Assembly: GCF_017306585.1 (NCBI RefSeq)
Contig: NZ_JAFKIC010000141.1
Location: 1-41,898, forward strand
DNA: 41,898 nucleotides
Reading direction: 5' to 3'
Source: Mesorhizobium sp.
Lineage (GTDB): Bacteria > Pseudomonadota > Alphaproteobacteria > Rhizobiales > Rhizobiaceae
Of the stretch, positions 665-28,300 are shown in pieces. Position numbers and translations under genes: made by a program. Positions within the stretch are counted from its first letter, which is position 1. Every line of letters starts with the position of its first letter. A model generated the notes under the pieces. It worked only from the letters and a program-made list of their open reading frames with translations. It was not told where the DNA came from and made no database searches.

Positions 665-1130
665 GCTCTGCTCCTTTTGGAACGGGTCCTGGAGCGGCAT
701 CACCATGACAACGCCCAACAGACCCGAGGCGCGCTGGCGCCGGGACTGTCGGGGGTTCCCGTGAAGGCACGAGAACAGAACTTCACCCTGAGAGGGCGAA
801 GGGCTTGGGCCTACCCAGACCAAGCCAGCCATTTTCGACGAAAGGAAATTACTGGGGCCGGGTGGAAATGTCCATCATCGCCACCCGGCAGCCAGCGGAG
901 ACGATCTGTCCCGGGATTGGACAAGGGGACCAACGCGTGCGTGCCGCCGAGGGCGGCTGCTTAGCAAAAGCCGAGGACATGTCCGGGGCCTTCGTTCTCG
1001 GCCGATGTGGGCACAGGCGAACGTCGATCACGTGGTTGGAATGTCGAGAAGACAGCGATCGGCTCAAGGCATATTGACAGTCAATCGTCTACCTACTAGT
1101 TGGTAGGTAATTGAAACGAGAGCTTCCATC
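665..1130. other. divergent intergenic region
   Basis: This 466-bp gap separates the divergent NmrA-like and DUF308-like genes. No open frame in it has a convincing start or family resemblance. The right end carries the promoter and TetR-type operator described separately. A 10-bp palindrome GGACATGTCC at 975-984 is the only other symmetry seen. Confidence 0.5.
1074..1109 (+). promoter_or_regulatory. promoter with TetR-type palindromic operator
   Basis: TTGACA at 1074-1079 is a consensus -35 box. A 17-bp spacer leads to TAGTTG at 1097-1102 as a weak -10. An inverted repeat TACCTAC-N6-GTAGGTA spans 1090-1109 and covers that -10. A TetR-family gene follows one gene downstream, so autoregulation of the pair by steric block is the natural inference. 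Seen: the symmetry and spacing. Inferred: binding by the 1874-2461 product. Confidence 0.6.
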
Positions 1131-1742
1131 ATGCCTGAACACATCAACGACCAGAGTCGCGTCGCCTCATCGAACGAGTGGCTAAGAAACTATTATTATC
1201 TGCGGTTTGCCGTATCGGCAGCCTGGGTCGTGGCAGCTTTCACTGTCGCGAAAAGCAGTGTACCAGTCGCCGCCGCCATGCTGATTGCCTATCCCGCATG
1301 GGACGCGCTCGCCAACTACGTGGACGCCCGGCGTACCGGCGGCCTCGGCCGCAACAGGTCGCAACTGCTCAACTTCGCCATCAGCATCCTAGCCGCGATC
1401 GCGGTCGCCATCGCGCTCGGTCACGGCATGAACGCGGTGCTCTCGGTTTTTGGCGTCTGGGCTGTTGTCGCGGGCGTGTTCCAGCTCCTGACAGCGGTGC
1501 GGCGCTGGAAGACCAGCGGCGCTCAGTGGGCGATGATCCTGAGCGGCGCCCAATCGGCGCTGGCAGGTCTTTTCTTCGTCAGGATGGCCGGCGGCACGCA
1601 GGTCGTCGGCATCGTCGATGTCGCCCCCTACGCCGCGTTCGGCGCCTTCTACTTCCTCGTCTCCGCCTTGTGGCTGTCGATCGGCGACGCCTTTCGCAAA
1701 TCGCGGCCGGCCGCGAGCCAGGCCAATTCCGGAAAAATGTGA
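1131..1742 (+). CDS. DUF308/HdeD-like integral membrane protein
   Basis: The 203-residue product has a short polar N-terminus and then about six hydrophobic segments: near residues 25-60, 80-100, 105-122, 135-152 and 160-185. A charged tail ends in the cytoplasm. Glycine- and alanine-rich helices in evenly spaced hairpins fit the DUF308 family, which includes HdeD of the acid-stress response. No catalytic motif is visible. The start is the first ATG after the operator-bearing promoter at 1074-1109, and the TetR gene follows 131 bp downstream on the same strand. The gene is therefore likely induced together with its regulator. The biochemical role is unknown. Confidence 0.65.
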   Translation: MPEHINDQSRVASSNEWLRNYYYLRFAVSAAWVVAAFTVAKSSVPVAAAMLIAYPAWDALANYVDARRTGGLGRNRSQLLNFAISILAAIAVAIALGHGMNAVLSVFGVWAVVAGVFQLLTAVRRWKTSGAQWAMILSGAQSALAGLFFVRMAGGTQVVGIVDVAPYAAFGAFYFLVSALWLSIGDAFRKSRPAASQANSGKM

Positions 1743-1873
1743 ACGGCCGGGCTCGGCGAGTTCAGCGAAATCTGCGCTCGCAATTGCATCAAAACAGGGA
1801 CCTGGCGCGGGTTGCCGTTTGCGCGAAACCGGCAACCCGCTAAGGACGAACGAGCCCTCCGCCGGAGCAAAAC

Positions 1874-2461
1874 ATGAGCAAGCTTTCGAACACTGCCGAC
1901 GAAATCCTCGCCGCCGCGCGAACCTTCATCGTCTCCGGCGGATACAATGGCTTCAGCTATGCCGATATCGCCGAAGTGATCGGCATCCGAAAAGCCAGCA
2001 TACATCACCATTTCCCCAGCAAGGCCGATCTCGTGCAGACCTTGCTCAAGCGCTACCTCGACGATGCCGTGACGGGCCTGGGAGGGCTCGAGCGCAATGT
2101 CCCCGAACCGCCCGAGTTGCTTCGAGCCTATGCCGGTATCTGGGCTCGATGCATCGAGGATTCCAGCATGCCGTTCTGCGTCTGCGCGCTGCTTGCCAGC
2201 GAACTGCCGGCCCTTCCGCCGGAGGTTGGCCTGGAAGTGCGGGCGTATTTTCGGTTTCTCTCGAAATGGCTGGCCGACGTCATCGCGCGTGGCGCGGAGA
2301 CAGGCACGCTGGTGATTTCCGCCTCGCCGCGCGTCGAGGCCGAGGCTTTCATGGCGACCGTGCATGGCGCGATGCTGTCCGCGCGCGCTTATGGCGATGT
2401 CTTGACCTTCGGCATGATCCTGACGCCGACGCTCCGTAAGTTGAACCCTGCGGCCGACTGA
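1874..2461 (+). CDS. TetR/AcrR family transcriptional regulator
   Basis: The 195-residue product starts at an ATG preceded by GGAG. Residues about 8-55 form the TetR DNA-binding domain, with the recognition region YADIAEVIGIRKASIHHHFP followed by SKADL, a canonical TetR signature. The C-terminal ligand-binding domain contains a cysteine pair in the stretch MPFCVCAL and an ELPALP segment. It probably represses its own operon through the palindrome at 1090-1109. The neighbours are an NmrA-like protein on one side and a degenerate aldehyde dehydrogenase on the other, so an electrophile or redox signal is a reasonable guess but no more. Confidence 0.85.
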   Translation: MSKLSNTADEILAAARTFIVSGGYNGFSYADIAEVIGIRKASIHHHFPSKADLVQTLLKRYLDDAVTGLGGLERNVPEPPELLRAYAGIWARCIEDSSMPFCVCALLASELPALPPEVGLEVRAYFRFLSKWLADVIARGAETGTLVISASPRVEAEAFMATVHGAMLSARAYGDVLTFGMILTPTLRKLNPAAD

Positions 2462-2485
2462 TCTGGGCAACAACCGCCGGCGCAA

Positions 2486-3901
2486 TCAGGCCGACTGGCC
2501 TATCAGCCTGGCCTGGACATAGCCTTCCAGACTGTCGTCGCCATGGCCGCCGCCTATGTCGCCATAGGGCTGGGTGAGAACCCGGCCGTCGCGCTGGTTG
2601 AGGAACAGCATGTCGCTGGCGAAGTCGCGGTTCAGCCTATCCATCCTTTTCCGAGAGGTGGTGAAGGCATGCAGCGCCAGGACGGGGCGAAGACCGTTCA
2701 GCCCGGCAATCCCATCCTCGTAGCGGTCGAAACGGTTGACCACCGTGATCGGGCCGAACGGTTCGGTGTTCATCAAAAGCGCATCCGCCGCCACGTCCGT
2801 CAGGACGGTGGGCCAGAAGAAGCAGCCCAGATTGCCCATGCGATGGCCGCCGGCTGCCAAAGTGGCGGAACCGGCCACGGCGTCGGCGACCAGGGCCTCC
2901 ATCTTCGCTGTGCGGCACCCGTTCGCCAGCGGTCCCATCTCGACGCCTTGCTGGAGCCCGTTTCCGATCGTGATCCGTCGCGTCGCCTCGATGAAATCGT
3001 CGAGGAACCGTGCATGGATGGAGCTTTCGGTAAAAATGCATGTCGGCGCGAAACGCGCCTGTCCGGCATTCCTGAACTTGGCCCTGCAGAGCGCGGCCAC
3101 CGCGAGTTCGAGATCGGCGTCGCTGAAGACGATCGCCGGCGCTGGCCCGCTGAGTTCGATCGCCAGCCGCTTGCCGCGGGTCTTGGCCAGGGCCGCCAGC
3201 CGCGCGCCGAGCAGGGCCGGGCCGCTGTAGGAACCCCGCGCAATGGCGGGATGCGCGATCAGATAGGGCGCGATGTCGGCCTGCGGGCCATACACCAGGT
3301 TCAGCACTCCGGCAGGCAGGCCGGCGTCGGCGAGCGCAACGACCAGCGCGGCGCAACTGGCCGGCGCCGATGGTGGTCCGGCAAGCACGATCGACGAGCC
3401 GTCGGCCAGTGCCGCCGCCACCTTTCGCGCGGCCTGCCCGAGCGGAAAGCTCCACGCCGCGAATGCTGCTACGGGGCCGATCGGCTCATCCGGCGCGGCT
3501 TGCCTGGCCTCTGCGCTCACGGTCCCACCGCCATGACTGGCGCCCTCATTGGCGAACCAGTCGAGCAAGGCGGCGGCTGCCGCCGCCTCCGCGCGCGCTT
3601 CGGCAAGTGGCTTTCCCTGCTCCATCGTCAACAGATGCGCGATGGGCTCGACCCGCTTGCGCAACAGATCGGCCGCCCGCATCAGGATCCGGCCTCGCTC
3701 GGCCGCACGCATCCGCCGCCATGTCCAGAATGTGCGCTCAGCGCACGCCGTGGCCTCGTCCAGGTCCTGCACGCCGGCCGTGGCGACGGTGCCGATGCTG
3801 GCCTCCGTGGCTGGGTCGAGGACAGGAACATCAGGCAATTGCCCTCCGCGCCAGCGGCCGTTGATGTGCAGCAAGCTGTTCGCATAGGCATAGGTTTTCA
3901 T
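2486..3901 (-). CDS. aldehyde dehydrogenase-like protein lacking catalytic residues
   Basis: The 471-residue product aligns by eye along the whole aldehyde dehydrogenase fold and looks closest to the succinate-semialdehyde dehydrogenase branch. The start at 3901 is chosen because GGAGGG lies just upstream; an in-frame start at 3982 adds 27 residues without family resemblance. Key residues are altered. The catalytic motif NAGQxC reads NAGQAR, so Arg replaces the nucleophilic Cys near residue 283. WNFP reads WSFP near 150, removing the oxyanion Asn. The NAD-contacting Lys of VLKP is Ala in VLAG near 174. The general-base Glu in IELSG remains. The frame is intact, which argues for a retained non-catalytic protein rather than recent decay. 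Confidence 0.85.
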   Translation of the reverse strand: MKTYAYANSLLHINGRWRGGQLPDVPVLDPATEASIGTVATAGVQDLDEATACAERTFWTWRRMRAAERGRILMRAADLLRKRVEPIAHLLTMEQGKPLAEARAEAAAAAALLDWFANEGASHGGGTVSAEARQAAPDEPIGPVAAFAAWSFPLGQAARKVAAALADGSSIVLAGPPSAPASCAALVVALADAGLPAGVLNLVYGPQADIAPYLIAHPAIARGSYSGPALLGARLAALAKTRGKRLAIELSGPAPAIVFSDADLELAVAALCRAKFRNAGQARFAPTCIFTESSIHARFLDDFIEATRRITIGNGLQQGVEMGPLANGCRTAKMEALVADAVAGSATLAAGGHRMGNLGCFFWPTVLTDVAADALLMNTEPFGPITVVNRFDRYEDGIAGLNGLRPVLALHAFTTSRKRMDRLNRDFASDMLFLNQRDGRVLTQPYGDIGGGHGDDSLEGYVQARLIGQSA

Positions 3902-4291
3902 TGTCCCTCCGGCCACGATCGACATGCCAACCGCCGATGGATCCCCCTTCGGCATGACTTCCGATGCCCGGACCCCGAGCATCCGTGGCGACCCTCACCG
4001 CCAGGAACGACTATGCGACCCCTTCGTTTCGCTAGTTTTTCCGCTCTATTGAACGTTGTTTCTGGATTGTTTCGCGCGACTGCCCGCAATCACAGGACGA
4101 ACCCGACGCTCCCAAGCGCCGCTGTGGAGATCAGGCCGACAGCCGCACGCCTGTTGGGCCGTCATAAGTTGCTGGCGGGCACCGATGGATCGGCGGGTCG
4201 AGCGCTGAGTGACCCCAGGAAAAATGTGAACCGGTTTTCCCGGGAAAAGCGCGCAGCGCCTTCCCTCGGGAATTGCGCAAGGACAAAGAGT
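3902..4291. other. intergenic region between ALDH-like gene and comM
   Basis: This 390-bp region lies upstream of the ALDH-like gene and downstream of comM; both genes are on the minus strand. It should hold the ALDH promoter and the end of the comM transcript. A palindromic repeat sits at 4227-4253. No supported gene was found. Confidence 0.5.
4227..4253 (+). repeat. palindromic intergenic repeat, copy 1
   Basis: The core TTTTCCCGGGAAAA is a perfect 14-bp palindrome within GTGAACCGGTTTTCCCGGGA. A second copy in opposite orientation occurs at 40355-40381. Such dispersed palindromes are typical of rhizobial intergenic space. In the comM direction it is followed by a run of T, so it could also help end the comM transcript. 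Confidence 0.6.
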
Positions 4292-5671
4292 CTAGGCCGC
4301 CTGCGCCACGCGTTCCGAACTCATGCGGTAGGAAATCGCCTCGGCCAGATGGATGCGGCCGACGGTCTCGCTGGCATCCAGATCGGCCAGCGTGCGCGCC
4401 ACCTTCAGCACGCGGTGGTAGGCGCGGGCGGAGAAGGCCAGCTTTTCGCTGGCATCCCTGAGCAGCGACAGGCCGGCGGCATCGGGCGCGGCGATAGCCT
4501 CGATGACCGAGGGCGCGCAATGCGCATTGGTGGTGGCGCTGGTGACGCCGAGCCGCTCGAAGCGCTCGCGCTGGATGGCGCGGGCGCGCGCCACGCGTAT
4601 GGCGACGACGGCGCTCTTCTCCGCCTGGTCCGGCTTGATCAGGTCGCTGGCCGAAACCGCCGGCACTTCGATCCTGAGGTCGATGCGGTCGAGCAGCGGG
4701 CCGGAGATGCGCGCCTGATAGTCGGTGCGGCAGCGCTCGCCGCGCACGCAGCGATAGCCCGGCTCACCGGCCATGCCGCATCGGCACGGATTCATCGCCG
4801 CCACCAGCTGGATGCGCGCCGGATAAGTGACCCGATGGTTGGCGCGCGCAATCATGCAGTCGCCCGTCTCCAGCGGCTGGCGCAGCGCATCCAGCGTCTG
4901 CGGCGTGAACTCGGGAAATTCGTCGAGGAACAGCACGCCGTGATGGGCGAGCGACACTTCGCCGGGCCGGGCGCGCAGGCCGCCGCCCACCATCGCCGCC
5001 ATCGAGGCCGAATGATGCGGCGCGCGGAACGGCCGCCGGTCGGTCAGTTTACCCTCGCCGAGTTCGCCGGCGACGGAGGCGATCATCGAGACTTCCAGCA
5101 GTTCCTTCGGCGCCAGCGGCGGCAGGATCGACGGCAGCCGCTGCGCCAGCATCGACTTGCCCGAACCGGGCGGCCCGACCATCAAGAGATTGTGCCCGCC
5201 GGCTGCCGCCACCTCCAGTGCGCGCTTGGCGGTCTCCTGCCCCTTGATGTCTGCGAGGTCGGGCAGGTCGCGCGCCGTGGCGTGGATGCCGGCCTCCGGT
5301 CGCGACAGCACCTGCGTGCCTCGGAAATGGTTGGCGATGGCGATCAGGCTGCGCGGCGCCAGTATGTCGAAGTCCTTGCCGGCCCAGGCGGCTTCGGGGC
5401 CGCAGGCGAACGGGCAGATCAGGCCCTTGCCTTCCGCATTGGCGCCGATCGCCGCCGGCAGCGCGCCGGCGACCGCCGTTATCGTGCCGTCGAGCGACAA
5501 TTCGCCCAGCACCACATAGCCGGCCAGCATGTCGCCGGGGATGGCGCCGAGCGCCGCCATCAGGCCAAGCGCGATGGGCAGATCGTAGTGGCTGCCTTCC
5601 TTGGGTCGCAGTGCGGCGTGCGTCTGGATTAGCGGATGTGTACTGCAGTTGCCGCAGGCCATGAAAGGCAA
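4292..5671 (-). CDS. comM: ComM/YifB Mg-chelatase-like AAA+ ATPase, N-terminus removed by island
   Basis: This is the C-terminal 432 residues of ComM, a hexameric AAA+ helicase that promotes branch migration during natural transformation in Vibrio. True comM sequence runs from 5605 to 4292. The frame continues into the island to an ATG at 5671, so a 459-residue protein with a foreign 22-residue leader is possible. Walker A GPPGSGKS is at about 166-173, Walker B is in VLFLDEF, and a Cys-rich segment with CRCGMAGEPGYRC follows. The missing N-terminal 78 residues are encoded at 20792-20559, beyond the island. The N-terminal part is an S5-like domain in this family. The gene is probably inactive, although all ATPase motifs remain. 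Confidence 0.93.
   Translation of the reverse strand: MPFMACGNCSTHPLIQTHAALRPKEGSHYDLPIALGLMAALGAIPGDMLAGYVVLGELSLDGTITAVAGALPAAIGANAEGKGLICPFACGPEAAWAGKDFDILAPRSLIAIANHFRGTQVLSRPEAGIHATARDLPDLADIKGQETAKRALEVAAAGGHNLLMVGPPGSGKSMLAQRLPSILPPLAPKELLEVSMIASVAGELGEGKLTDRRPFRAPHHSASMAAMVGGGLRARPGEVSLAHHGVLFLDEFPEFTPQTLDALRQPLETGDCMIARANHRVTYPARIQLVAAMNPCRCGMAGEPGYRCVRGERCRTDYQARISGPLLDRIDLRIEVPAVSASDLIKPDQAEKSAVVAIRVARARAIQRERFERLGVTSATTNAHCAPSVIEAIAAPDAAGLSLLRDASEKLAFSARAYHRVLKVARTLADLDASETVGRIHLAEAISYRMSSERVAQAA
5592..5605. other. attL core of the comM island
   Basis: CTGCCTTCCTTGGG is identical to 20560-20573. On the minus strand it encodes the ComM residues PKEG and part of Ser. To its left lies ComM sequence continuing HYDLPIAL; to its right lies island sequence. 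The integrase gene starts 166 bp away, as expected for a tyrosine-integrase attachment site. Confidence 0.88.
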
Positions 5672-5771
5672 CGGACTCGGCGTTTCGCGAGTTTACCGGA
5701 GAGGGCCCCGGCTAGCCCTTGTTTCCATTATGATGGTGAGCCTATGGTGAGCAGACACCGGAAGGGGCCGC

Positions 5772-7052
5772 TTGAAAATGCCAAAACTCACCAAGGCCGT
5801 CGTCGACGGTGCCGATCTACGCCCGAAACAATACACCATTTGGTGCTCGGATCTGAAGGGCTTCGGCGTCTATGTCCACCCTACCGGTCGGCGAACCTAT
5901 TTCGTCGACTATCGCTCCGGCGATGGCGCACGCCGGCGGATGACAATCGGTCGACACGGCGTCATCACCACTGAGCAGGCGCGCAAGCTCGCGATTGAGA
6001 CAATGGGCGGTGTGGTTCTGCAGAAGGCTGATCCGTTGCTCGAGCGCAAGACACGCCGGAAATCCATGACGGTGGCGCAGCTCTGCGACCAATACCTGAA
6101 GGCGGCGGAAAAGGGAGCGATCCTCGGCAGGAGCCGGCGGCCGAAGAAGGCATCTACCATTGAAATCGACCGAGGTCGGATAGCACGGCACATCAAACCG
6201 CTGCTCGGCACGAAGCTTGTGATTGACCTCACGCGCGCCGACATCGTGAAGTTCGTTCGGGACGTGACGGCCGGCAAAACGGCTAGGCGCGATCGCTCGG
6301 GCAAGAACGGCAATCGCGTCTTGGTCACGGGAGGCGCCGGCACCGCGGCGCGCACGACGGGCTTTCTCGGCGGCATCCTTACCTATGCCATCGGCGAGGG
6401 TATCATCACCGCCAACCCCGTGCAGGGCGTTCCCTTGCCGGCAGACAACGTGCGAGATCGCCGGCTGACCGCTGGCGAATACCGCGCAATTGGAAAAGCG
6501 TTGACCGGGGAGCAATCCGAAATTGACACGCCGCAGGCAATCACCGGCGCCTGGCTGCTTGCGCTCACTGGATGCCGGCTTGGCGAGGTCTCAACGCTGC
6601 AGTGGGACGAAGTCGATGAGGCCGCCGGTTGCTTCCGGCTGATGGACAGCAAGAGTGGGCCATCCGTGCGCCCTGTGGGGCGAGAAGCGTTCGACGTGCT
6701 GCGCAAGGCCATCCGCGTGCCCGGCAATCCCTACGTGCTCCCCGCCCTCCGCAAAACGGGCCATTACAACGGATTGGCCGGAGCATGGGCGCGCTTCATG
6801 GAGCGAGCTGAACTGGAAGGCGTCACGCCGCACACCATGCGGCACTCCTATGCATCTGTCGGCGGGGATCTCGGATTTGCAGACAGTACAATCGCTGCCA
6901 TGCTCGGCCATGCCGGCGGCACCGTCACCAGTCGTTACGTCCACCGCCTCGATACAGTGCTGGTCGCGGCTGCGAACAAGATCGCCGGCGAAGTTTATCG
7001 GCAGATGACTGGAAAGACAGCAGAGTTGTTGGAGCTGCCGTTGCGGGCTTAG
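5772..7052 (+). CDS. tyrosine-type integrase of the comM island
   Basis: The 426-residue product has an N-terminal DUF4102-like arm-binding domain (about 1-90), with FGVYVHPTGRRTYFVDYR. A core-binding domain follows (about 95-215), then the catalytic domain. The catalytic residues are all visible: Arg269 in TGCRLGE, Lys294 in SKSG, His354 and Arg357 in HTMRH, His380 in LGHAG, and the nucleophile Tyr389 in SRYVH. It should catalyse integration and excision at the 14-bp comM core. The start is TTG at 5772 or ATG at 5778; GGAAGGGG lies just upstream of both. It overlaps by four bases the end of the convergent Arc-like gene. Confidence 0.95.
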   Translation: MKMPKLTKAVVDGADLRPKQYTIWCSDLKGFGVYVHPTGRRTYFVDYRSGDGARRRMTIGRHGVITTEQARKLAIETMGGVVLQKADPLLERKTRRKSMTVAQLCDQYLKAAEKGAILGRSRRPKKASTIEIDRGRIARHIKPLLGTKLVIDLTRADIVKFVRDVTAGKTARRDRSGKNGNRVLVTGGAGTAARTTGFLGGILTYAIGEGIITANPVQGVPLPADNVRDRRLTAGEYRAIGKALTGEQSEIDTPQAITGAWLLALTGCRLGEVSTLQWDEVDEAAGCFRLMDSKSGPSVRPVGREAFDVLRKAIRVPGNPYVLPALRKTGHYNGLAGAWARFMERAELEGVTPHTMRHSYASVGGDLGFADSTIAAMLGHAGGTVTSRYVHRLDTVLVAAANKIAGEVYRQMTGKTAELLELPLRA

Positions 7053-14214: not shown

Positions 14215-14440
14215 CGTATCGCCCTTGTGCGGGAGACGAATTTCTCGGCGACCTTCTGCGGCGCCTTGTGGCATCGTTTCTCTCGCGAGATGCAACTATC
14301 GCCACAAGCCTTGCCGGCCGAACACGTTTTGCAGCAGCCTTCGATCGGGGGATAGTTGGAGCAGGGCGCCCGACGATCGACTCCGGATTGGTCGGCATGA
14401 AAATGCCGACAATCGCCAACGCGGCGATGATCCGAAACAT
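14211..14440 (-). pseudogene. frameshifted copy of small secreted Cys-rich protein
   Basis: An ATG at 14440 after GAGGGAAG begins the signal peptide MFRIIAALAIVGIFMPTNP, nearly identical to the intact copy at 19578-19793. Relative to that copy, 13 bases are missing after the TCGATCGGG at 14340-14348. The GCCKTCSAGKACGDSC region is therefore thrown out of frame. The original frame, if restored, would end at 14211 and differ at the C-terminus (CHKAPQKVAEK instead of CHKAPGCACDG). Both copies lie in the island, 5.3 kb apart in the same orientation. Confidence 0.75.
14261..14440. repeat. direct repeat A of a duplicated small gene
   Basis: This segment matches 19601-19793 with scattered single-base differences and one 13-bp gap. 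The duplication covers almost exactly the coding region, so it may reflect two related genes acquired separately or an old tandem-type duplication. Confidence 0.75.
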
Positions 14441-14559
14441 GAGTTCTTCCCTCAGAAGTCAGGGGATTAAAGCATCTGAAAAGGTTGCGGTCGAGTGGCC
14501 AAACCTAGCCGTGCTCCTTCGCTCGCCCGCGAACACATTCAAATGAGGCAATGTCTGTA

Positions 14560-14856
14560 TCAGGCGTCAACCGTCCAGGTGGCATTTTCGCCATTCTGGA
14601 TGAGCTTGATCGTCGCCGTCTTTGCAAACGTCGCAACAAAAGAATAGTGGACGCTCAGGATGTCCTCTTGAAGCGGTTGGTCGTCCTCGATCGCGGAAAC
14701 GGTCAGTCCAATGTCTCGGCATTTATCGATCAAAAAATGATGTCCGTGCTCAGTCGTGCCTTTGTAGTCCATCAAGCTGTCAACGATAGCCTTGGCGGCT
14801 TTGCTCGGGTCGGCCGAACTTGCCAGCATATTGCCCCGTAGCCAGGCCGAGACCAT
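14560..14856 (-). pseudogene. C-terminal fragment resembling SDH-family Clp-fold serine protease
   Basis: The 98 codons from ATG 14856 start abruptly with WLRGNML. They contain HGHHFLIDKCRDIGLTVSAI, then EDDQPLQEDILSVHYSFVAT and a TIKLIQN end. I associate this order (HxxxI..C..IGL, then 'LQ..ILSVH') with the C-terminal part of SDH-family Clp-fold serine proteinases. No catalytic domain is encoded upstream. Instead the frame meets an A6/G7 homopolymer tract and a comM relic. It is therefore judged a 5'-truncated remnant, although the surviving frame is open. Confidence 0.45.
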
Positions 14857-14883
14857 CTCCCGGGTCCCTTCCCCCCCCTTTTT

Positions 14884-14936
14884 TGCACGCGCTCACGGCT
14901 CTCGGCCACCGCCTTGTCGGGCAGGCCGACGATGTG
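14884..14936 (-). pseudogene. comM: relic fragment of a second comM allele
   Basis: These 53 bp match 20647-20699, inside the N-terminal part of the resident comM, at 50 positions. On the minus strand they encode HIVGLPDKAVAESRERV in the comM reading. The three differences are all synonymous third-codon changes (GAA/GAG, CGC/CGT, GAA/GAG). Matching stops sharply at both ends. The fragment therefore comes from a functional comM of another lineage and not from the resident gene by recent copying. Confidence 0.85.
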
Positions 14937-14987
14937 GATCATAAGGTGGATTAATTACCGCTTTGTTGGCTCGTCGAGGTGCGGCAG

Positions 14988-15356
14988 TTAACGTGGTTCG
15001 TTCATCGGAACTATCAACGCATCAATCATTGCCGTTGCCCGCGCCAAGGCGGCCCTTGCAGCGCTTAGTTCTATCGTCAGTTCGTATTCGTCGCGGCCCG
15101 CCATCTTCAGCAGTCCATGGAGCACGGCGTTCGAGTTTTTCGCCAGTAGTATCAAATGCCAGCCGTCTGGGCCCCTGGCGCCCGACAACCAGTATTTCGC
15201 AGCTCGATCGCTTGCTCCGGTCCAATGCATCACCGTCTTCGTTGCGCGCGCACTTGTACCTAACTCTGAGCGCAAGGCAGTGGAGATTGTTGAGGCATAG
15301 CGACCAGCCTCTCCCTTACGTGATTTCGGAACAATTGTGCCTTTCTTCGGAAACAT
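14988..15356 (-). CDS. putative DNA-binding regulator divergent from the recombinase unit
   Basis: The 122-residue product starts at ATG 15356 after GAAGGAGG. Residues 20-60 contain ALRSELGTSARATKTVMHWT followed by GASDRAAKYWLSGARGP, a helix-turn-helix layout in which the second helix precedes a WLSG turn. A helical C-terminus ends the protein. I recall similar short proteins beside recombinase genes in rhizobia but cannot name a formal family. Only 63 bp separate it from the divergent serine recombinase gene, so it probably regulates both. Function as repressor is inferred. Confidence 0.6.
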   Translation of the reverse strand: MFPKKGTIVPKSRKGEAGRYASTISTALRSELGTSARATKTVMHWTGASDRAAKYWLSGARGPDGWHLILLAKNSNAVLHGLLKMAGRDEYELTIELSAARAALARATAMIDALIVPMNEPR

Positions 15357-15419
15357 AGTTCGGCCCTCCTTCGGCTAAACTCCCTGTCCCGAGGCCATTA
15401 TAAATGCGTCCACGCACTG

Positions 15420-16997
15420 ATGGTAATCGATTGGAGCCAGACCGGGACAGGAAAGCCGAAGGAAGTTGAACGGGGGCGAACTCGTGCAGCAGCCTACGTC
15501 CGGATGTCGACTGAGCACCAAAAGTATTCTACTGACAACCAGTTGGCGGTAATCCAGCGCTACGCCGACCGCCGCCAATATGAGATTGCCCGCACCTACA
15601 CAGATTCCGGGAAGAGCGGACTACGGCTCGTGGGTAGAGATGCTCTTCAAGCCTTGCTGCAGGACGTGGAGAGTGGCCTCGCCGATTTCATGGCGATCCT
15701 CGTGTATGATGTCAGCCGATGGGGCCGTTTCCAAGACCCCGATGAAGCCGCAGCGATTGAGCTTCGCTGTAAGCACGCGGGCATTGTCGTTCACTACTGC
15801 GCCGAGCAGTTTGAAAACGATGGCAGCATTGGGTCGTCGATCGTCAAAACCGTGAAACGCGCAATGGCTGGGGAATACAGCCGCGAACTGTCGGTTAAGG
15901 TGTTTGCCGGGCAGGCTAACCTCATTCGCTTGGGCTTTCGGCAAGGAGGAGCCCCGGGATTTGGATTGCGCCGTGTGCTTGTTGACCAAACCGGAAATCG
16001 AAAGGCCGAACTCGCTCGGGGCGAGCATAAGAGTATCGCGACCGATCGGGTTGTGTTGGTGCCGGGTCCCGCAGGCGAAGTTACGCTGGTCCAGCAAATC
16101 TACAGGTGGTTCGTCGAAGATAGGCTGGGCGAGCGTCAAATAGCTGGTATGCTCAATGATCGAGGGGTGCTTACCGATCTTAACAGACCCTGGACGCGTG
16201 GGGCGGTCCACCAACTGCTGATCAACGAGAAATACGTTGGCAACAATGTCTGGGGCCGCACATCATTTAAACTGAAGCAGGTTCACAAGAGAAACCCACC
16301 GGGAATGTGGGTCCGCCGTGATGGCGCGTTCGAACCTGTGGTGCCAGTAGAAGCTTTCACGGCAGCGCAAGAGATTATAGAAGCGCGTGCACTCCGAATG
16401 TCTGACGAGACCATGCTAGCCAAGCTGGAAGAGGTACTGCGACAAAAGGGCATGCTGTCCGGTCTCATTATTGACGAGGTCGATGACCTGCCATCTAGCA
16501 GTTCCTACGCTTCCCGGTTTGGGAGCTTGCTTCGTGCGTATGCTTTAGTGGGGTTCGTGCCGGATCGTGACTATCGCTACCTTGAGATTAATCGTCAGCT
16601 AAGACAGCTACATCCCGATATAATAAAAGACGTTGTCAGAGGCATAGATGAGGCGGGTGGCCGGGCCGTCCAAGATGCCGGCACTGACCTGCTGCGCATA
16701 AACAGTGAATTTACGGCCTCGATTGTAATCGCGCGATGCATAGAGACCTGCGCCGGCGCGCTGCGATGGAAGATTAGGCTAGATACTGCGCTCAATCCTG
16801 ACCTAACCATTGCGGTGAGGATGCGCCGTGGCAATGAAGCGCCGCTCGACTACTATCTGTTGCCTCGCCTGGACATGCACGAGGCGGTACTTCGTCTCTG
16901 CGAGTTCAATGGTCTGTCGTTGGATTGCTATCGGTTCGACAGCCTGTTCCATTTGTATGATATGGCCGCGCGCAAGCAAATGTTGGAGACTGGGTAA
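15420..16997 (+). CDS. large serine recombinase
   Basis: The 525-residue product has an N-terminal resolvase domain (about 22-170). The nucleophile is Ser30 in AAAYVRMSTEHQKYSTDNQ, and the VYDVSRWGRF motif of the catalytic pocket follows. A recombinase domain comes next (about 180-290, with QGGAPGFGLRR and the GERQIAGMLNDRGV region). The C-terminal region is unusual: there is no visible zinc-ribbon Cys pattern and a long helical tail. No clear ribosome site precedes the ATG at 15420, and TATAAA lies about 20 bp upstream. The stop overlaps the next start by one base, so the recombinase and two ParB-like proteins form one unit. Confidence 0.92.
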   Translation: MVIDWSQTGTGKPKEVERGRTRAAAYVRMSTEHQKYSTDNQLAVIQRYADRRQYEIARTYTDSGKSGLRLVGRDALQALLQDVESGLADFMAILVYDVSRWGRFQDPDEAAAIELRCKHAGIVVHYCAEQFENDGSIGSSIVKTVKRAMAGEYSRELSVKVFAGQANLIRLGFRQGGAPGFGLRRVLVDQTGNRKAELARGEHKSIATDRVVLVPGPAGEVTLVQQIYRWFVEDRLGERQIAGMLNDRGVLTDLNRPWTRGAVHQLLINEKYVGNNVWGRTSFKLKQVHKRNPPGMWVRRDGAFEPVVPVEAFTAAQEIIEARALRMSDETMLAKLEEVLRQKGMLSGLIIDEVDDLPSSSSYASRFGSLLRAYALVGFVPDRDYRYLEINRQLRQLHPDIIKDVVRGIDEAGGRAVQDAGTDLLRINSEFTASIVIARCIETCAGALRWKIRLDTALNPDLTIAVRMRRGNEAPLDYYLLPRLDMHEAVLRLCEFNGLSLDCYRFDSLFHLYDMAARKQMLETG

Positions 16998-17890
16998 TGA
17001 GTGCTGTTCCTGCCCAACGCGTTGAAATGATTCCGATCAATCGGATCACTGTGGTTAACCCGCGGATACGCAACAAAAAAGTATTCAAGGAGATCATCGG
17101 CAATATTGCCGAAATCGGATTGAAGCGACCCATCACGGTGACTCGAAGGGCGGAAGCGGGGGGACCATCATACGATCTTGTGTGCGGTCAGGGGCGATTA
17201 GAGGCGTTCAAAGCGCTCGGGCAGAAAGAGGTACCGGCGCTTGTTGTAGCTGCCAATCAGGAGGACTGCCTCGTCGCGAGCTTGGTAGAGAATTGCGCCA
17301 GGCGTCAGCTTCGCGCAATCGACCTTCTTCAAGATATCGGGGGGCTTAAGCAGCGCGGTTATTCCGTGCCTGAGATTGCCCGCAAGACGGGACTCACCGG
17401 CGAATATGTCTACGCCGTTATACGGCTCCTCGAAAAAGGCGAGCAGCGCTTACTCCGCGCTGTGGAATCCGGCCAGATCCCCTTCAGTGTGGCATTGGAG
17501 ATTGCGGAGGCCGATGGTGACGGGGTTCAAGGCGCGCTTCAGAATGCTTACGAGGCGAATCTTCTCCGTGGCCGCAAGCTGCTTGTGGCGAAGCGCCTTG
17601 TTGAGGCACGACGTCATCTCGGAAAGGGGCTCAAGGTTCATCAAAGCGCAAAGCGCTCTGCGCCTCTCTCCTCGGAAGCGTTGGTCCGTGCCTATCAGCA
17701 AGATGCTGATCGCAAGAAAGTTCTGATACGCCGAGCGGAGGCCGCGAAAGGCCGGTTGGTCTTCATTGCTGAGGCCTTGCGTCGGCTCGTCGCTGATGAC
17801 GCTTTTATCCGTATGCTTGGCGAGGAGAGCTTGAGCGACCTTCCTGCTCCAATTGCATTGCGGATACGCAGGGAGGCGATTTTGTCGTGA
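16997..17890 (+). CDS. ParB/RepB N-terminal-domain protein
   Basis: The 297-residue product has a ParB-type nucleotide-binding domain (about 8-100). PINRITVVNPRIRNKKVF leads into CGQGRLEAFKALGQKEVPAL (the GxxR box) and the second box VENCARRQLRAIDLL. A helix-turn-helix follows in YSVPEIARKTGLTGEYVYAV. In canonical ParB proteins these boxes form the CTP-binding clamp. Start and stop overlap neighbours by one and four bases, which indicates translational coupling. No ParA-type ATPase is encoded nearby, so classical partition is unlikely. Action on the recombinase's DNA sites is a plausible inference. Confidence 0.9.
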   Translation: MSAVPAQRVEMIPINRITVVNPRIRNKKVFKEIIGNIAEIGLKRPITVTRRAEAGGPSYDLVCGQGRLEAFKALGQKEVPALVVAANQEDCLVASLVENCARRQLRAIDLLQDIGGLKQRGYSVPEIARKTGLTGEYVYAVIRLLEKGEQRLLRAVESGQIPFSVALEIAEADGDGVQGALQNAYEANLLRGRKLLVAKRLVEARRHLGKGLKVHQSAKRSAPLSSEALVRAYQQDADRKKVLIRRAEAAKGRLVFIAEALRRLVADDAFIRMLGEESLSDLPAPIALRIRREAILS

Positions 17891-18777
17891 GGACACTACG
17901 CGGAACCGTAAGCGTCGAGAGGGCTTTCGAAGACGCCAGCCTGCGAATTCCGATTGCGGACATCATGCCGTTGAAGGTCCTAACGCCCGCAGTCTTGAAA
18001 TCGGTTAAGTACGCCCAAATCGCCGCTTCGATACAGGAAGTTGGTATCATCGAGCCACCCGTGGTGGTGCGCGACAAGAAGGATAGCGAGCGGTTCCATC
18101 TGCTCGATGGCCATGTCCGTATCGACATCCTGCAAAAGCGTGGGGACTTAGAAGTAGTATGCCTGGTTGCCACCGACGACGAGGCTTACACCTACAACAA
18201 GCGGGTCAGTCGCATAGCAATCATTCAGGAGCATAAAATGATCCTGAAAGCCATTGAGAAGGGTGTCCCGGAAGAGCGCCTAGCAAAGGCACTCAACGTG
18301 AACATTTCCAACATTCGCCAGAAGAAGGCGCTGCTGGACGGCATATGCCCTGAATCAGCCGAGCTGATCAAAGACAAGCATGTTCCAATCAACACGATAG
18401 GCTTGCTTAAGCAGCTGAAGCCAGTCCGTCAGATCGAGGCGGTCCAGTTAATGATCGCAATGAACAAGTTCACCTTCACCTATGCGCGCTCGCTCGTGGC
18501 CGCTACGCCGGAGTCCCAATTAGTGCGCGGCAAGAAGTCAGTAAAGGGACTGAGTGACGAGCAGATCGCATTGATGGAGAACGAATCCGCCCAACTCGAG
18601 CGAGAATTTCGGACAATCGAACAGGACTATGGTACCGACCATTTGGATTTGGTGTTGGCGATAGGTTATGTGACGCGGTTGCTTGGAAATGCCCGCATTG
18701 TTCGGTATCTTGCCGCCAACTACGCGGACGTTCTTTCGGAATTTCAGAAGATTGCCGAACTTCAGAAGGCTGCTTAA
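17887..18777 (+). CDS. RepB C-terminal-domain, ParB-like protein
   Basis: The 296-residue product starts with GTG at 17887, overlapping the preceding stop. Its N-terminal ParB-like domain (about 18-100) includes SIQEVGIIEPPVVV and the box LLDGHVRIDILQKRG. NKRVSRIAIIQEHKMI and a helix-turn-helix in VPEERLAKALNVNISNIRQK follow. The C-terminal half (ESAELIKDKHVPINTIGLLK and beyond) resembles the RepB partition family. It is the last gene of the recombinase unit. Having two different ParB-like proteins side by side without ParA is the notable feature. Both should bind DNA in the cytoplasm. Confidence 0.88.
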   Translation: MRTLRGTVSVERAFEDASLRIPIADIMPLKVLTPAVLKSVKYAQIAASIQEVGIIEPPVVVRDKKDSERFHLLDGHVRIDILQKRGDLEVVCLVATDDEAYTYNKRVSRIAIIQEHKMILKAIEKGVPEERLAKALNVNISNIRQKKALLDGICPESAELIKDKHVPINTIGLLKQLKPVRQIEAVQLMIAMNKFTFTYARSLVAATPESQLVRGKKSVKGLSDEQIALMENESAQLEREFRTIEQDYGTDHLDLVLAIGYVTRLLGNARIVRYLAANYADVLSEFQKIAELQKAA

Positions 18778-18933
18778 GCTGTCGACTGGCTAAGCGTTAC
18801 AAATTTGGCAACCATGGTCTTCAACTGCCGGGAAACCTTGACTCACATCGTGAGAAGGCTCGCCCCTGTTCCGCCGCAATGCGGCTGCACGGGACGATCG
18901 ATAGGGATTTCAGACCTTTAAGGGAGACCTCGC

Positions 18934-19254
18934 ATGATCATTCATAAAGCCGTTGCGGCCGTGGTTCTGGCCGCCGCGCTTGCGGGCTGCCAGTCGCAGA
19001 CCGAAGGCCAGCAGCGGGCCACGACGGGCGCCCTGCTCGGCGGCGCCGGGGGCGCCCTCGTGGGCCAGGCGATCGGCGGCAACACTAAGAGCACGGTCAT
19101 CGGCGCGGCGAGCGGCGCGCTGCTCGGCGCCGTCGTCGGTTCCGCCACCACCCCACAGGAACCGCGTGGCCGGCAGCTCTGCCGCTACCAGGACCGCTAC
19201 GGCCAGATCTACACCGCGCCGTGCGACGATCGCTACTACAACGGCAATTACTGA
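18934..19254 (+). CDS. glycine-zipper lipoprotein (17-kDa antigen type)
   Basis: The 106-residue product starts after AGGGAGACC. The signal peptide MIIHKAVAAVVLAAALAGCQ ends in a lipobox (LAGC) and should be lipidated at Cys19. The mature part has a glycine zipper, TTGALLGGAGGALVGQAIGG then AASGALLGAVVGSA, which forms a helical hairpin in membranes. A C-terminal segment follows with CRYQDRYGQIYTAPC. This matches the 17-kDa surface antigen/YMGG family, probably in the outer membrane. Its 3' half lies opposite the end of the frame at 19097-19567. Confidence 0.85.
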   Translation: MIIHKAVAAVVLAAALAGCQSQTEGQQRATTGALLGGAGGALVGQAIGGNTKSTVIGAASGALLGAVVGSATTPQEPRGRQLCRYQDRYGQIYTAPCDDRYYNGNY

Positions 19255-19567
19255 TTGAAGATCTAGCTGATGGAGGCCGCGTTGACAGCGGCCCCCTTCG
19301 CCAGTCGATCTCGTTGCCGTCGTCATCCTCATCAGATCCACGGTTGGGATCCTCGATATAAGTTTGGCAGCTCTCGTTGAATGACTGACTGTTCGAGCTG
19401 CAATCGCTTTCGTCGGTGATCTCGTTCTGTTGAGCCCAATCGTAGCCAGCCTTGTGCCCCGAGCAATCTTCCGTGCACTCGTTGCCGCCGAAAGTCTGTT
19501 GTGCGCTGGCCGCCGACGACCACGCCAAGGCAGCGGCACCAGCCAGAATTGCAACTCGTCGGACCAT
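19097..19567 (-). CDS. secreted protein with Cys/Asp-rich domain, aberrant C-terminus
   Basis: The start at ATG 19567 follows AGGGGGAAA; the frame could also open at 19585. MVRRVAILAGAAALAWSSAA-SAQQ is a clear signal peptide. The mature part, NECTEDCSGHKAGYDWAQQN followed by SDCSSNSQSFNESC and EDPNRGSDEDDDGNEID, is an exported domain I have seen in rhizobial proteins. After about residue 80 the frame runs into Arg/Ser-rich sequence antisense to the lipoprotein gene. The natural stop has thus probably been lost by a frameshift or junction. The true domain ends near 19325. Function unknown. Confidence 0.6.
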   Translation of the reverse strand: MVRRVAILAGAAALAWSSAASAQQTFGGNECTEDCSGHKAGYDWAQQNEITDESDCSSNSQSFNESCQTYIEDPNRGSDEDDDGNEIDWRRGPLSTRPPSARSSISNCRCSSDRRTARCRSGRSGPGSGRAAGHAVPVGWWRNRRRRRAARRSPRR

Positions 19568-19577
19568 TTGTTTCCCC

Positions 19578-19793
19578 CTATCCATCACATGCGCACCCCG
19601 GCGCCTTGTGGCATCGTTTGTCTCGCGAGATGCAACTATCGCCACAAGCCTTGCCGGCCGAGCACGTTTTGCAGCAGCCTTCGATCGGGATTGTCGACCA
19701 GGGGATAGTTGGAGCCGGCCGCCCGACGATCGACGCCGGATTGGTCGGCATGAAAATGCCGACGAGAGCCAGCGCCGCGATGAACCGAAACAT
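19578..19793 (-). CDS. small secreted Cys-rich protein (GKACGDSC motif)
   Basis: The 71-residue product starts at ATG 19793 after GGGAGGGGG. MFRFIAALALVGIFMPTNP is a signal-like hydrophobic leader. The mature part holds nine cysteines in GCCKTCSAGKACGDSCISRD and CHKAPGCACDG, suggesting disulfides or metal binding outside the cytoplasm. Short proteins with a GKACGxSCI core recur across Proteobacteria as uncharacterised secreted proteins. A frameshifted copy is present at 14211-14440. It sits 11 bp upstream of the next secreted-protein gene on the same strand, so the two are probably co-transcribed. Confidence 0.75.
   Translation of the reverse strand: MFRFIAALALVGIFMPTNPASIVGRPAPTIPWSTIPIEGCCKTCSAGKACGDSCISRDKRCHKAPGCACDG
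19601..19793. repeat. direct repeat B of a duplicated small gene
   Basis: This is the intact partner of the segment at 14261-14440. It contains the 13 bp that are missing from the other copy. Confidence 0.75.
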
Positions 19794-20016
19794 GAGTGCC
19801 CCCTCCCAAGAAGCAAGCATCAAGCTATTTGGAAGTCGAGCAGCGCCGCCCGGGCAACCCTGGCGCTGGTTATCGCGCCTAGTCTACCTCTCTACTCTGC
19901 CATCCCACATAACTTGGCGCAAATAGCCGCCACATTTGAATTATAAGACTGATTGCATATCAGTCGCGCCATCACCGTTAATTTAAGCGTCGCTTCATAT
20001 TGTCGGTATTGATCAA

Positions 20017-20370: not shown

Positions 20371-20552
20371 TTTTTCCCCCGTAGAAAAATATTTCTACGC
20401 ACAATAACATTCAATTTTCGACGACAAGGCAAGTCCCCCCGCTTTTTAGCCTCGAACATCGACCGTCAGCTGTGCTCAGAGGACGTGAGTATCCAGTGAG
20501 TACAAATCTGAGGCGCAGCCGAGATCCTTGAAAAATAAAGCGGGATGGACAG

Positions 20553-20792
20553 TTAGTAACTGCCTTCCTTGGGCAGGTCGGCCGGCGCCAGGTTGACCGT
20601 CACCTTCTTCGACGGCATCGACAGGCCCGACGCATGAAGGGCGGCCTGCACGCGTTCGCGGCTTTCGGCCACCGCCTTGTCGGGCAGGCCGACGATGTGC
20701 ATGTTGACCTTGCCGGGCGCGATCATCACCTGCACATCGACCGGCACGGCCTCGATGCCCTGGAAAGCGACAGTGCGGACCCGCGCCACCAT
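20553..20792 (-). pseudogene. comM: N-terminal fragment of ComM cut by the island
   Basis: ATG 20792 opens ComM with MVARVRTVAFQGIEAVPVDV and continues through VNMHIVGLPDKAVAESRERV to NLAPADLPKEGS. At the attR core it passes into island DNA and stops two codons later (TAC TAA). The 78 ComM residues join exactly to HYDLPIAL at the other end of the island, giving 510 residues in total, the usual length for the family. The fragment has only the start of the N-terminal domain and no ATPase motif, so it cannot work alone. Confidence 0.93.
20560..20573. other. attR core of the comM island
   Basis: CTGCCTTCCTTGGG repeats the core at 5592-5605. Resident comM continues to its right (CAGGTCGGCC, encoding ADL in reverse). 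To its left is AT-richer island DNA. Confidence 0.88.
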
Positions 20793-25082: not shown

Positions 25083-25312
25083 CAATGGTCTCTGGCAAAT
25101 CGTCGCGTGACGGAGACAATGTCATACGATCCGTACCGCCAGCAAAGCCGCGCTTTACCGATCGTCCCATTTTTTTAACCCGGCGTCCCAACCGGCCACA
25201 TCAGGCTTGAACGCGCCTCGCGCCCGTCGGAACAGTCCCCGGCGTGGGCGAGGGGTGCATGCGGACATGGTTTTCCGCCACCGCTCATATATGGGCGGGG
25301 GCTGCCGGGACC

Positions 25313-28300
25313 ATGGGAAATCAGTTTATGCGTTGGGCCGTTCTGGCCCGCATTCTGGTTGTTGCGGGTATCTTTGTTTGCGGTGCGGTCGGGTGGGCGG
25401 CGCCAGCTTACACGGCACCATCGCCACCTGTTTCATCGGCGCAATTCACTCCGGCTACTGGAATAGCGGGTCAAACGGTTGTTCTGACAATCGGGTTTAC
25501 AAATCCCAACGCCACACCCCTGACGAATGTCAGCACCTCAGCCTGGTTGACCAACGGCGCCTACTTCAGTTCGGTGGACAGCAATACTTGCGGCGCCACC
25601 ACGTCTCTTGCTTTGAATTCAAGGGCTGAGATTTCCGGTGGGTCATTGGCCGGTCTTGCGAACTGCAGCATAAAACTGATTGTTCAATTGCCAAATAGCC
25701 CGGGATTCTTTTCTGTACGCAATCAAGACGGGGGAGTTTCCTCAAACGAATCCGGAAGCACCCGAGACGGCACCTTCTATATCGGCCTGACCAGCTACGC
25801 AGTGCTGACGACCAGCCAGGCTATTCCTTCGATCACCGCTTACCAATCCACGTCTATCGGTACGGGCCTGACGCCTGTCACCGCGAGCGGCGGCAACGGG
25901 CCCTCTTTTGCGATATCGCCAAGCCTTCCGACAGGTCTTTCGTTCAATGCCGCAAACGGCGAAATCACCGGAACGCCGACTGTTACCTCGACCGCGAAGA
26001 CATACACTGTCACCGCCACCGATCAGTCCAGTCCGGCGCAAACGTCGTCAAAAACCTTCCAATTGCAGGTGTTGGCCGTTTCTCCGCCCAATTCCGCACT
26101 GTCATATGTCTATGCGGGAACGCCGATCGCCGGCCAGGTGGTGAAGGGGCAACTGGTACTGACAAATCCCAATCCGGTGGGGCTGACGGGCATTACCGTC
26201 CGTGTTCATAACAGCAACGGCGCCAGGTATCCCTCACCGGCAAATCTGGTCAACGGCTGCGGCGGCAGTGTAGATGTCGGCAATGGACCCAATGGCCTTG
26301 TTCTCTCAGGCGCAACCCTGCCTGGCCTTGGCAGCTGCACCCTTACAGTCGACATTCTGCTTCCATCGTCCGCGGGCAATACTTCCATCGACACCACGCT
26401 CGATGCCGCCACGGCCACCGAATCTGGCAGCGCCTTTGGAAGCAAGGGCTACTCGGTCCTCACGTTTTATAATCTGCTGACGACCACTCGGGCCGTCAAC
26501 TCTTTGAACGTCTATCAAGGCGTGACGGTCAGTTCCGTCACACCTGTCATGGCGTCCGGTGGCGCACCGGCAATCACCCTCGGCATATCGCCGACTTTGC
26601 CTGCAGGCCTGCAATTCAACACCTCGACAGGCGCGATCACCGGCACCGCCTCCGCAACGTCGCCGACAACAACCTACACCGTCACGGCAACCGATGAGGC
26701 CAATCCGCCGCAGACGTCCTCCAGGACATTCGATCTGACGGTCACAAGCCCGGTGGTGGCCACGCAAACCGTGCCGACGCTGACCCTGACCAGCGGGCGG
26801 GCGGCCACGTCTGTCACACCGGTGACAGGCAGCGGCGGTATCGCCGCGCTGGCTTACAGCGTAAACCCGTCCCTGCCCGCCGGCCTGTCTCTCGATCCAT
26901 CGACCGGCGCCATCACTGGTACGCCAAGCGTCGCATCCGCCGCCACGACCTATACTGTCTTGGTAACCGACGCCGGCGGCGCCACGGCATCCAACACATT
27001 CTCGCTCACCATCAACAGCGCGGTCACGGCCACGCAGGCTATAGCGACGGCGATACTCACCCAGAATCACGCGGCCACGTCGTTCACTCCCGTTACCGGC
27101 GGCGGTGGCACCAGCCCGCTATCCTATTCCGTATCGCCGGCGCTCCCGGCAGGATTGAGCTTCGACACCGCGAACGGGCAGGTCACCGGTACGCCAAGCG
27201 GCTCAGCGGCCGCCACGACCTATACGGTGACGGTGAGCGACGCCAACGGCGCCTCGGCATCCAATACGTTCTCGCTCGCCGTCAACGGCGCGGTGACCGC
27301 CACGCAGGCGGTCGCCACGACGAACCTCACGCAGAATCACCCGGCCGCGTCGTTCATCCCCGTGACCGGCAGTGGTGGAGCCGGCGCGCTATCCTATGCC
27401 GTATCGCCGGCGTTGCCGGCAGGATTGAGCTTCGACATCGCGAACGGGCAGGTCACCGGCACGCCAGGCGGCGCAGTGGCCGCCACGACCTACACGGTGA
27501 CGGTAACCGACGCCAATGGCGCCACGGCATCCAATACGTTCTCGCTTGCCGTCAACGGCGCCGTCACCGCCACGCAGGCGATAGCGACGACGATCCTCAC
27601 CCAGAGCCACGCGGGCGCGTCGTTCACCCCCGTGACCGGCGCTGGCGGAACCAGCCCGCTGTCCTATGCCTTGTCACCCGCGCTGCCGGCGGGATTGAGC
27701 TTCGACACCGCGACCGGAGCCGTCACCGGCACGCCAACCGTCGCATCGGGCGCCACGACCTACACGGTGACAGTGACCGACGCCAACAACGCCTCGGCAT
27801 CCAATACCTTCTCGCTTGCCGTCGGCAGCGCCGTCACGGCGACACAGGCGGTGGCTTCCAAGGCGCTCATCGTCACCTCGCCGGTGACCCCGTTTACGCC
27901 CGTCACCGGCGGCGGTGGAACCGCGCCCTTGTCCTATGCCGTCTCGCCGGCCTTGCCGGCGGGCCTCGACTTCGGCACGGCCGACGGGAAGGTAAGCGGC
28001 ACGCCGACGACCGTCAGCGCGACGGCCAGTTATGTGGTGACGGTGACGGACGCCAATGGCGCGACGGCGACCGGCAGCTTCAGCCTCAAGATCGACAGCA
28101 TCGGGCAGACCATCACCTTCACCTCGACACCGCCCAGCCCCGTCCATGTCCATTCGCCCGACTATCTGGTCTCGGCCACCGGTGGCGGGTCCGGCGAGCC
28201 CGTCCTGTTCTCGATCGACGCATCGAGCGGCGCGGGCGTCTGCAGCATCTCGGGCAACACGGTATCGTTCCTCTCGCAGGCCGGCACCTGCATCGTGAAC

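Follow-up and report, generated by a model that had tools for sequence, protein, structure and literature searches.

A displaced comM fragment within a Mesorhizobium island is probably the attachment scar of a mobile element lost from codon 31

The window analysed here, the whole stretch of 41,898 nucleotides from Mesorhizobium sp. (contig NZ_JAFKIC010000141.1), carries comM in two parts separated by an island, and a short third piece of comM lies within that island. This piece is the sole comM sequence in the window besides the two resident parts, and the question that it raises is how a fragment of the interrupted gene came to be located inside the DNA that interrupts it.

Judged on its sequence, the segment 5606-20556 is a tyrosine-integrase island at codon 74 of comM, as in genomes G029 and G015, because of its integrase, its core, and its presumed arm sites (Table 1). 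The integrase is beside one comM half, the core is a direct repeat at both ends, and the same arrangement is seen in G029 and G015, where arm-type pairs similar to GTGAGC-n5-GTGAGC were seen by eye. The relic and the codon-31 element end that adjoins it are both situated within this island. Elsewhere in the window, at 26598-28068, there are long internal repeats (68–75% identity) in an open reading frame of 1457 residues (25244-29617) that is autotransporter-like by eye.

Table 1. Features of the window bearing on the origin of the comM relic.
Feature	Position	Strand	Remarks
Resident comM C-terminal part, nt 220-1533 (codons 74-510)	4292-5605	-	Mg_chelatase domains
Left attachment core TGGCTGCCTTCCTTGGG	5589-5605	+
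Presumed arm-type pair GTGAGC-n5-GTGAGC	5736-5752	+	by left core
Tyrosine integrase of codon-74 island	5772-7052	+	92% / 77% identical to same-site integrases in G029 / G015
Small-gene block copy A	14259-14444		88% identical to 19599-19797
Protease-like gene, C-terminal fragment	14560-14856	-	cut on relic side; without Pfam matches (E limit 0.5)
comM relic, nt 91-146 (codon 31 to part of codon 49)	14884-14939	-	native reading direction; probable comM-side attachment-site half
17-base codon-31 element end CATAAGGTGGATTAATT	14940-14956	+	probable element-side attachment-site half; nine-junction alignment
Cassette adjoining element end	14988-18777	both	four genes; domain and homology searches
Small gene of cassette	14988-15356	-
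Serine recombinase of cassette	15420-16997	+
Two RepB/ParB-like genes of cassette	16997-17890, 17887-18777	+
Small-gene block copy B	19599-19797		near island's right end
Presumed arm-type pair GTGAGT-n5-GTGAGT	20485-20501	+	by right core
Right attachment core TAACTGCCTTCCTTGGG	20557-20573	+
Resident comM N-terminal part, nt 1-233	20560-20792	-	ends with the repeated core; no break at codon 31

An earlier note on this DNA had reported that 53 bp match resident comM at 50 positions, with three synonymous differences. This was reproduced, in that 14884-14936 is identical to 20647-20699 at 50/53 positions in the same orientation, and the differences, at codons 43, 45, and 46, are all synonymous. 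The match extends to 14939, for 52/56 identical positions, which places the earlier right edge three bases short. The fourth difference, in codon 31 just beyond the 53 bp first listed, is non-synonymous, Ile for Met, and presumably falls in the attachment core. Were three substitutions placed at random in codons 32-48, the chance of all being synonymous would be about 1.7%. Inside the window the next-best 56-mer has 24 mismatches to the relic, and a search of the window's own genome with the relic returned resident comM as the only comparable match, the next best having an E value of 0.03. A chance similarity or an assembly join might be considered, since the assembly consists of 385 contigs and a run rich in C and T adjoins the relic, but it is scarcely credible given the 52/56 identity, the lack of a comparable match elsewhere in the genome, and a breakpoint and 17-base end that are common to other genomes.

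It had also been claimed that the piece is not a copy of the resident gene and that it derives from another lineage. The first part holds to the extent that a recent copy of resident comM is disfavoured, while an origin in another lineage is not borne out, as the relic has 3–5 mismatches in 56 to 27 of the 29 comM loci with which it was compared (4 to the resident), and the comparison proposed as a way to the donor lineage singled none out. Taken as sequence, 56 bases such as these cannot name a donor and would only argue against a recent copy of resident comM; donor identification from them was set aside. A simple tandem duplication of resident comM was likewise set aside, since it leaves the codon-31 edge and the element end unexplained.

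The relic is flanked, as had been described, by a truncated protease-like gene on the left and by a serine-recombinase unit on the right. In tblastn against plasmids the protease-like fragment has three matches, the best to a hypothetical protein (39%) and the next to an annotated Clp protease subunit (35%). The C-rich and T-rich run lies where this fragment meets the relic, at 14864-14883, and is a possible deletion join. Plasmid records searched with the relic and its surroundings gave five matches, each of which stops at the relic's own edge (query 45-100).

The right edge of the relic is at nt 91 of comM, in codon 31, and this breakpoint is common to G013, G076, and G089, three genomes of the genus in which comM is split at nt 91 with the N-terminal part 29–38 kb off. 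These were found by the break alone, in a search with full comM, and are therefore independent of the sequence that follows the relic. When 14840-14980 was compared with the 146 genus genomes, 138 matched, and nearly all of the matches listed stop at 14939 or up to six bases earlier. Four other genus genomes match past the relic into the DNA on its right, where the alignment has comM cut at the same codon and then the same short sequence. The same junction is present in three genomes of other genera (G377, G405, and G419) and in an unclassed Rhizobiales record (L141). A scan of named genomes for the exact junction pattern identified Mesorhizobium amorphae CCBAU 01570, M. erdmanii USDA 3471, a Mesorhizobium metagenome-assembled genome, and L141, the first three of which are taken to be G003, G013, and G089 and are not counted as extra junctions. 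The junction pattern is present in 7 of 394 family genomes, as against 0 for the reversed control, and four of the seven are true comM junctions (the window, G377, G405, and G419); the other three, G324, G346, and G458, were dropped, there being no comM match at those loci.

Nine junctions were aligned (the window, G013, G076, G089, G003, G377, G419, G405, and L141); G042 was excluded because its element end has approximately 17 extra bases. In the 17 bases that follow the comM sequence, columns 3, 7, 11-15, and 17 are invariant (8 of 17), columns 5, 6, 9, 10, and 16 are held in 7–8 of the nine junctions, and columns 1, 2, 4, and 8 vary, while beyond column 17 no base is common to more than five. 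Five of the nine were recovered via the 17-base sequence (G377, G419, G405, and L141, with G003 by extended match), so these are not independent tests of it. In the complete codon-31 elements an inverted copy of the 17-base end stands on the N-terminal side, and both ends have a short core, ATNCAGAT, whose third base differs between them in all three. Such an arrangement is what a serine integrase would be expected to leave on splitting attP into attL and attR. There is one end only in the window, where an inverse copy of the 17-base end was looked for and none was found, and a search of the window's genome for a second comM N-terminal region identified a single region. The orientation of the relic and the shared junction support the earlier description of it as a comM remnant in native orientation, and the proposal that a second element was once inserted in a copy of comM is borne out by the nt 91 breakpoint and the 17-base end in nine junctions.

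Breakage of comM is not confined to codon 31. On a search of 146 genomes of the genus, with two candidates scored per genome and 39 genomes examined more deeply, comM is intact in 113, so that an uninterrupted codon-31 site does exist in relatives. It is split at codon 31 in 3, at codon 74 in 3 (that of the window included), and at codon 213 in 21, with 6 otherwise broken or missing. This third site, codon 213 (nt 638), is before the Walker A motif. Of its 21 cases four are weaker: no N-terminal part was found in G139 and G073, that of G129 is shortened, and G048 is near contig ends. Among the six others, G130 and G101 are at contig ends, G122 (79% complete) did not match, and the gene is otherwise shortened in G014, G144, and G065; G064, which has two full comM copies on two contigs, was counted once as intact. 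Two of the codon-213 elements, in G105 and G024, are just 7–8 kb long.

In G013, G076, and G089 there is a serine integrase of 603–614 residues within 90 bases of the comM N-terminal junction. These three codon-31 integrases, and two from codon-213 elements, have all of the resolvase, recombinase, and zinc-ribbon domains (PF00239, PF07508, and PF13408), and integrases of the two sites are 36–44% identical in the pairs compared. In a search of 40 chosen genomes at E 1e-20, in which L141 was not included, 16 matched. The integrase was found in 6/6 genomes with codon-31 elements (47–100% identity), and abuts the junction in the four that have both on one contig; in G377 and G405 they are on separate contigs. 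Codon-213 genomes account for eight further matches, three at 46–50% and five at 38–44% identity, and two weak matches (32–33%) are away from comM. Of the ten codon-213 genomes in this panel, eight have the related serine integrase 52–90 bases from the C-terminal comM part, G096 and G116 being those without. At the same threshold there is none in the other 24 of the 40 genomes, including the scar genomes G000, G003, and G042, and no relative of the codon-31 integrase is present in the window's genome. In phage records the relatives are at most 34% identical among the best 10 of 128 records.

The relic would thus be the comM side of the attachment site of a lost mobile element that had inserted at codon 31, most likely one with its own large serine integrase, a reading to which we assign a probability of about 0.85, because the same breakpoint, the same element end, and an integrase are found in all six codon-31 genomes tested. 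Several features count against it. The left edge of the relic, in codon 49, coincides with none of the known sites and calls for a deletion; the window has a single end and no such integrase; and the end in G042 has its extra bases.

The figure was lowered from 0.88 because of a cassette like that beside the relic, which is found alone between comM halves in Sinorhizobium sp. C101, so that another recombinase may serve such ends. In C101 (NZ_CP104135.1, labelled plasmid pC101a, 3.5 Mb; L151 4243-9636) comM nt 1-639 is followed by the same four-gene cassette as in the window, its two ParB-like genes included, and then by comM nt 621-1503. The insert is approximately 3.9 kb and the cassette is its sole content, with some 40 and 26 bases between it and the comM parts and no large integrase; its recombinase is 62% identical to that of the window. 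The C101 cassette could be a minimal mobile unit. In K101 and M103 the same recombinase and comM matches are seen at a spacing similar to that in C101.

That the recombinase of the window, perhaps with its ParB-like partners, itself inserted the cassette into comM at codon 31 was at first rejected, and was restored as an alternative after the C101 cassette was found. The recombinase is 480 bases from the junction, and relatives of it (approximately 45% identical) are 2–5 kb from the comM N-terminal part in G009, G091, and G135; the C101 arrangement also speaks for this alternative. It has PF00239 and PF07508 but no zinc ribbon PF13408 up to E 0.5, and no similarity to the codon-31 or codon-213 integrases was found (blastp E limit 0.01). 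The earlier note had suggested looking for recombinase units of this family that end at the same comM codon elsewhere, and the outcome was mixed: the 17-base end is absent within 1.5 kb of the four closest relatives fetched from the genus, and although the C101 cassette is in comM, it is at codon 213, where its end resembles those of codon-213 elements, which carry a large integrase, and not that of the window. In G009, G091, and G135 a large integrase abuts the other, C-terminal, comM half, for which reason the cassette is favoured as cargo. Insertion by the recombinase of the window is, on this evidence, improbable. The cassette may be cargo retained when the rest of the element was lost, or the integration agent itself; as cargo, 14988-18777 would perhaps have belonged to the lost codon-31 element.

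Relatives of the recombinase are common, being present in 70 of the 146 genus genomes (E 1e-20) and in 214 plasmid records, and in several of the loci fetched the two RepB/ParB-like genes are downstream of it. In 15 more distant relatives (L067-L081) a glycine-zipper gene is upstream and divergent, while in the window (14988-19255) it is downstream and in G009 it is on both sides, inverted. A close relative of the cassette, L082 in G125 (420-4355), adjoins genes that by eye resemble the transposition genes TnsA, TniA, and TniB.

Displaced pieces of comM are not peculiar to the window: among the 113 genomes whose comM is intact, at least 20 have them (E 1e-6). For twelve of the 36 extra pieces, that of the window included, an edge is no more than 9 bases from nt 91 or nt 638, where random placement gives a mean of 1.7 and none of 10,000 placements reached 12, although this excess is overstated, as the pieces are not independent and some are probably inherited. 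Without the window the count is 11/35. The other 24 of the 36 have no such site edge. Scars with the same codon-31 edge as the relic are found in G042 and G003. Orphan comM starts that end at nt 98-101 are present at G023:C134:26186, G144:C133:104239, and G129:C1:3922133, the N-terminal-side edge expected from a codon-31 insertion; G129 also has a codon-213 edge, where two elements may have met and the middle of comM been lost. Just downstream of comM in G135 (C2:2654968) and G120 (C1:730131), and also in G037, G074, G143, G145, and G090, there is a decayed piece of approximately nt 356-508 or 356-645, perhaps one old displaced N-terminal part that has been inherited by many.

In three genomes the displaced piece remains close to the intact gene in sequence. 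The N-terminal part in G103 is in the native upstream neighbourhood and shares 98.1% identity with the intact copy, which lies 12 kb further on; the C-terminal part in G075 has 98.7% identity, and approximately 356 bases of the DNA downstream are duplicated; and the piece of codons 31-104 in G042 is 96.4% identical. From such comparisons these look like cases in which comM has been recovered on one side and the broken half left behind, although comM halves borne by an element would look the same.

An imprecise excision, in which a codon-31 element left its donor chromosome with a piece of comM on one end and both were afterwards brought into the island, is unlikely, though compatible with the relic being an attachment scar; the relic would then at no time have been part of a comM gene at its present location. 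It would account for scars of which just one edge is at the site while the position of the other is arbitrary (scar lengths 56 bp in the window, 81 bp in G003, and 221 bp in G042), and for the G003 scar being on a contig other than that of comM. Against this, the displaced pieces in G042, G075, and G103 are beside comM in its native neighbourhood, which fits displacement in place, and a scan of viral contigs for the rejoined comM site and for the junction gave no match to either. The earlier note would have abandoned its view if the segment were a widespread non-coding repeat unrelated to comM, or were present in islands not linked to comM; no such case appeared, the nearest thing to it being the G003 location. 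The scar there (G003:C16:8530-8610, L138, M. amorphae) has 8 mismatches in 53 to the relic.

In the 88% repeat of the window (14259-14444 and 19599-19797) comM sequence comes after each copy, which suggests that these are right ends of two related islands at codon 74, fused by deletion. Two such islands, in two comM copies flanking the element end and the relic, would also be compatible with an attachment scar. The small-gene block is before the relic and before the island's right end in the same order and orientation relative to comM, its two copies are 88% identical to each other and at most 82% to any other copy among those listed, neighbouring intact and partial comM copies are found in G042, G075, and G103, and the protease-like gene is cut on the relic side. 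The repeats could, however, belong to a dispersed gene family, and a second attachment core or arm pair was looked for near 14883 without success, which leaves the two islands as a tentative possibility, to be given more weight than imprecise excision.

The attachment-scar reading would then run as follows. A mobile element, most likely with its own large serine integrase, would have inserted in comM at codon 31, so that the relic is the comM flank on the gene's C-terminal side and the adjacent 17 bases are the element's end, the integrase and the other end having been lost. The comM that remained, or that replaced it, has no break at codon 31 and is occupied at codon 74 by a different island, with a tyrosine integrase. 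Since codon 31 is uninterrupted in the resident N-terminal part, the contributors would have been two comM copies, or two chromosomes. One-sided recombination may have restored comM and left the old half beside what remained of the element, as seems to be so in G042, G075, and G103, and later deletions and codon-74 insertions may have brought the scar within the island that is there now. Such a course of events is one consistent possibility, inferred and not demonstrated.

More generally, it is an even chance that comM in Mesorhizobium has been repeatedly broken at three fixed codons by two integrase families and repeatedly recovered, each recovery leaving a half-gene fossil whose exact edge names the site, the relic being one such fossil. 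Whether mobile elements strike comM to block their own removal, and whether hosts regain the gene, is a question already posed in print. Scars with site-specific edges would record past invasions physically in genomes that now have an apparently intact comM, and one could then measure how often a transformation gene is lost and regained; if the generalization is true, such fossils would let the invasion and rescue of this gene be counted and dated across the genus. The codon-31 and codon-213 integrases, with different sites in one gene, are in addition a natural set for the study of site choice.

That comM is an integrase target is already in print, and as an attachment scar the relic belongs to a familiar class, for which its relatives account well; it is set apart by the repeated occurrence of such scars and by the presence of three fixed sites in one gene. 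A literature search for Mesorhizobium with comM or chelatase integration sites, from which most subscription journals fell outside, found nothing on this and returned one Methylobacterium paper. Integrative elements of Mesorhizobium are reported to integrate site-specifically at tRNA genes, guaA, radC, and dusA (PMC8627217), and the main text of that report, on the same genus, is without the words comM, chelatase, or competence. Of predicted site-specific large serine integrases, 12.4% target the magnesium chelatase/ATP-dependent protease gene (Durrant et al. 2022, PMC10083194), and competence genes are reported to be enriched. Those integrases share with the codon-31 elements the target gene family, the kind of integrase, and the attL/attR logic, although Mesorhizobium is not mentioned in the main text and the target-site section has nothing on several sites per gene or on displaced halves.

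Disruption of comM by diverse elements has been argued to reflect conflict over transformation (PMC4774983, PMC11472951), and the second of these raises the recovery of comM by recombination, with recent tracts over the gene in 35/386 A. baumannii genomes with complete comM, which is not above chance. Recovery was read there from recombination tracts, whereas the displaced half-genes described here, with their site edges, would be physical remains. There is also a likeness to the prophage WO sr1WO in the magnesium chelatase gene of Wolbachia (PMC9203015), which also involves a large serine recombinase and in which portions of the gene flank the prophage and are separated after rearrangement. 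That element is the phage of an endosymbiont, while the piece of comM in the window is an orphan scar inside another island.
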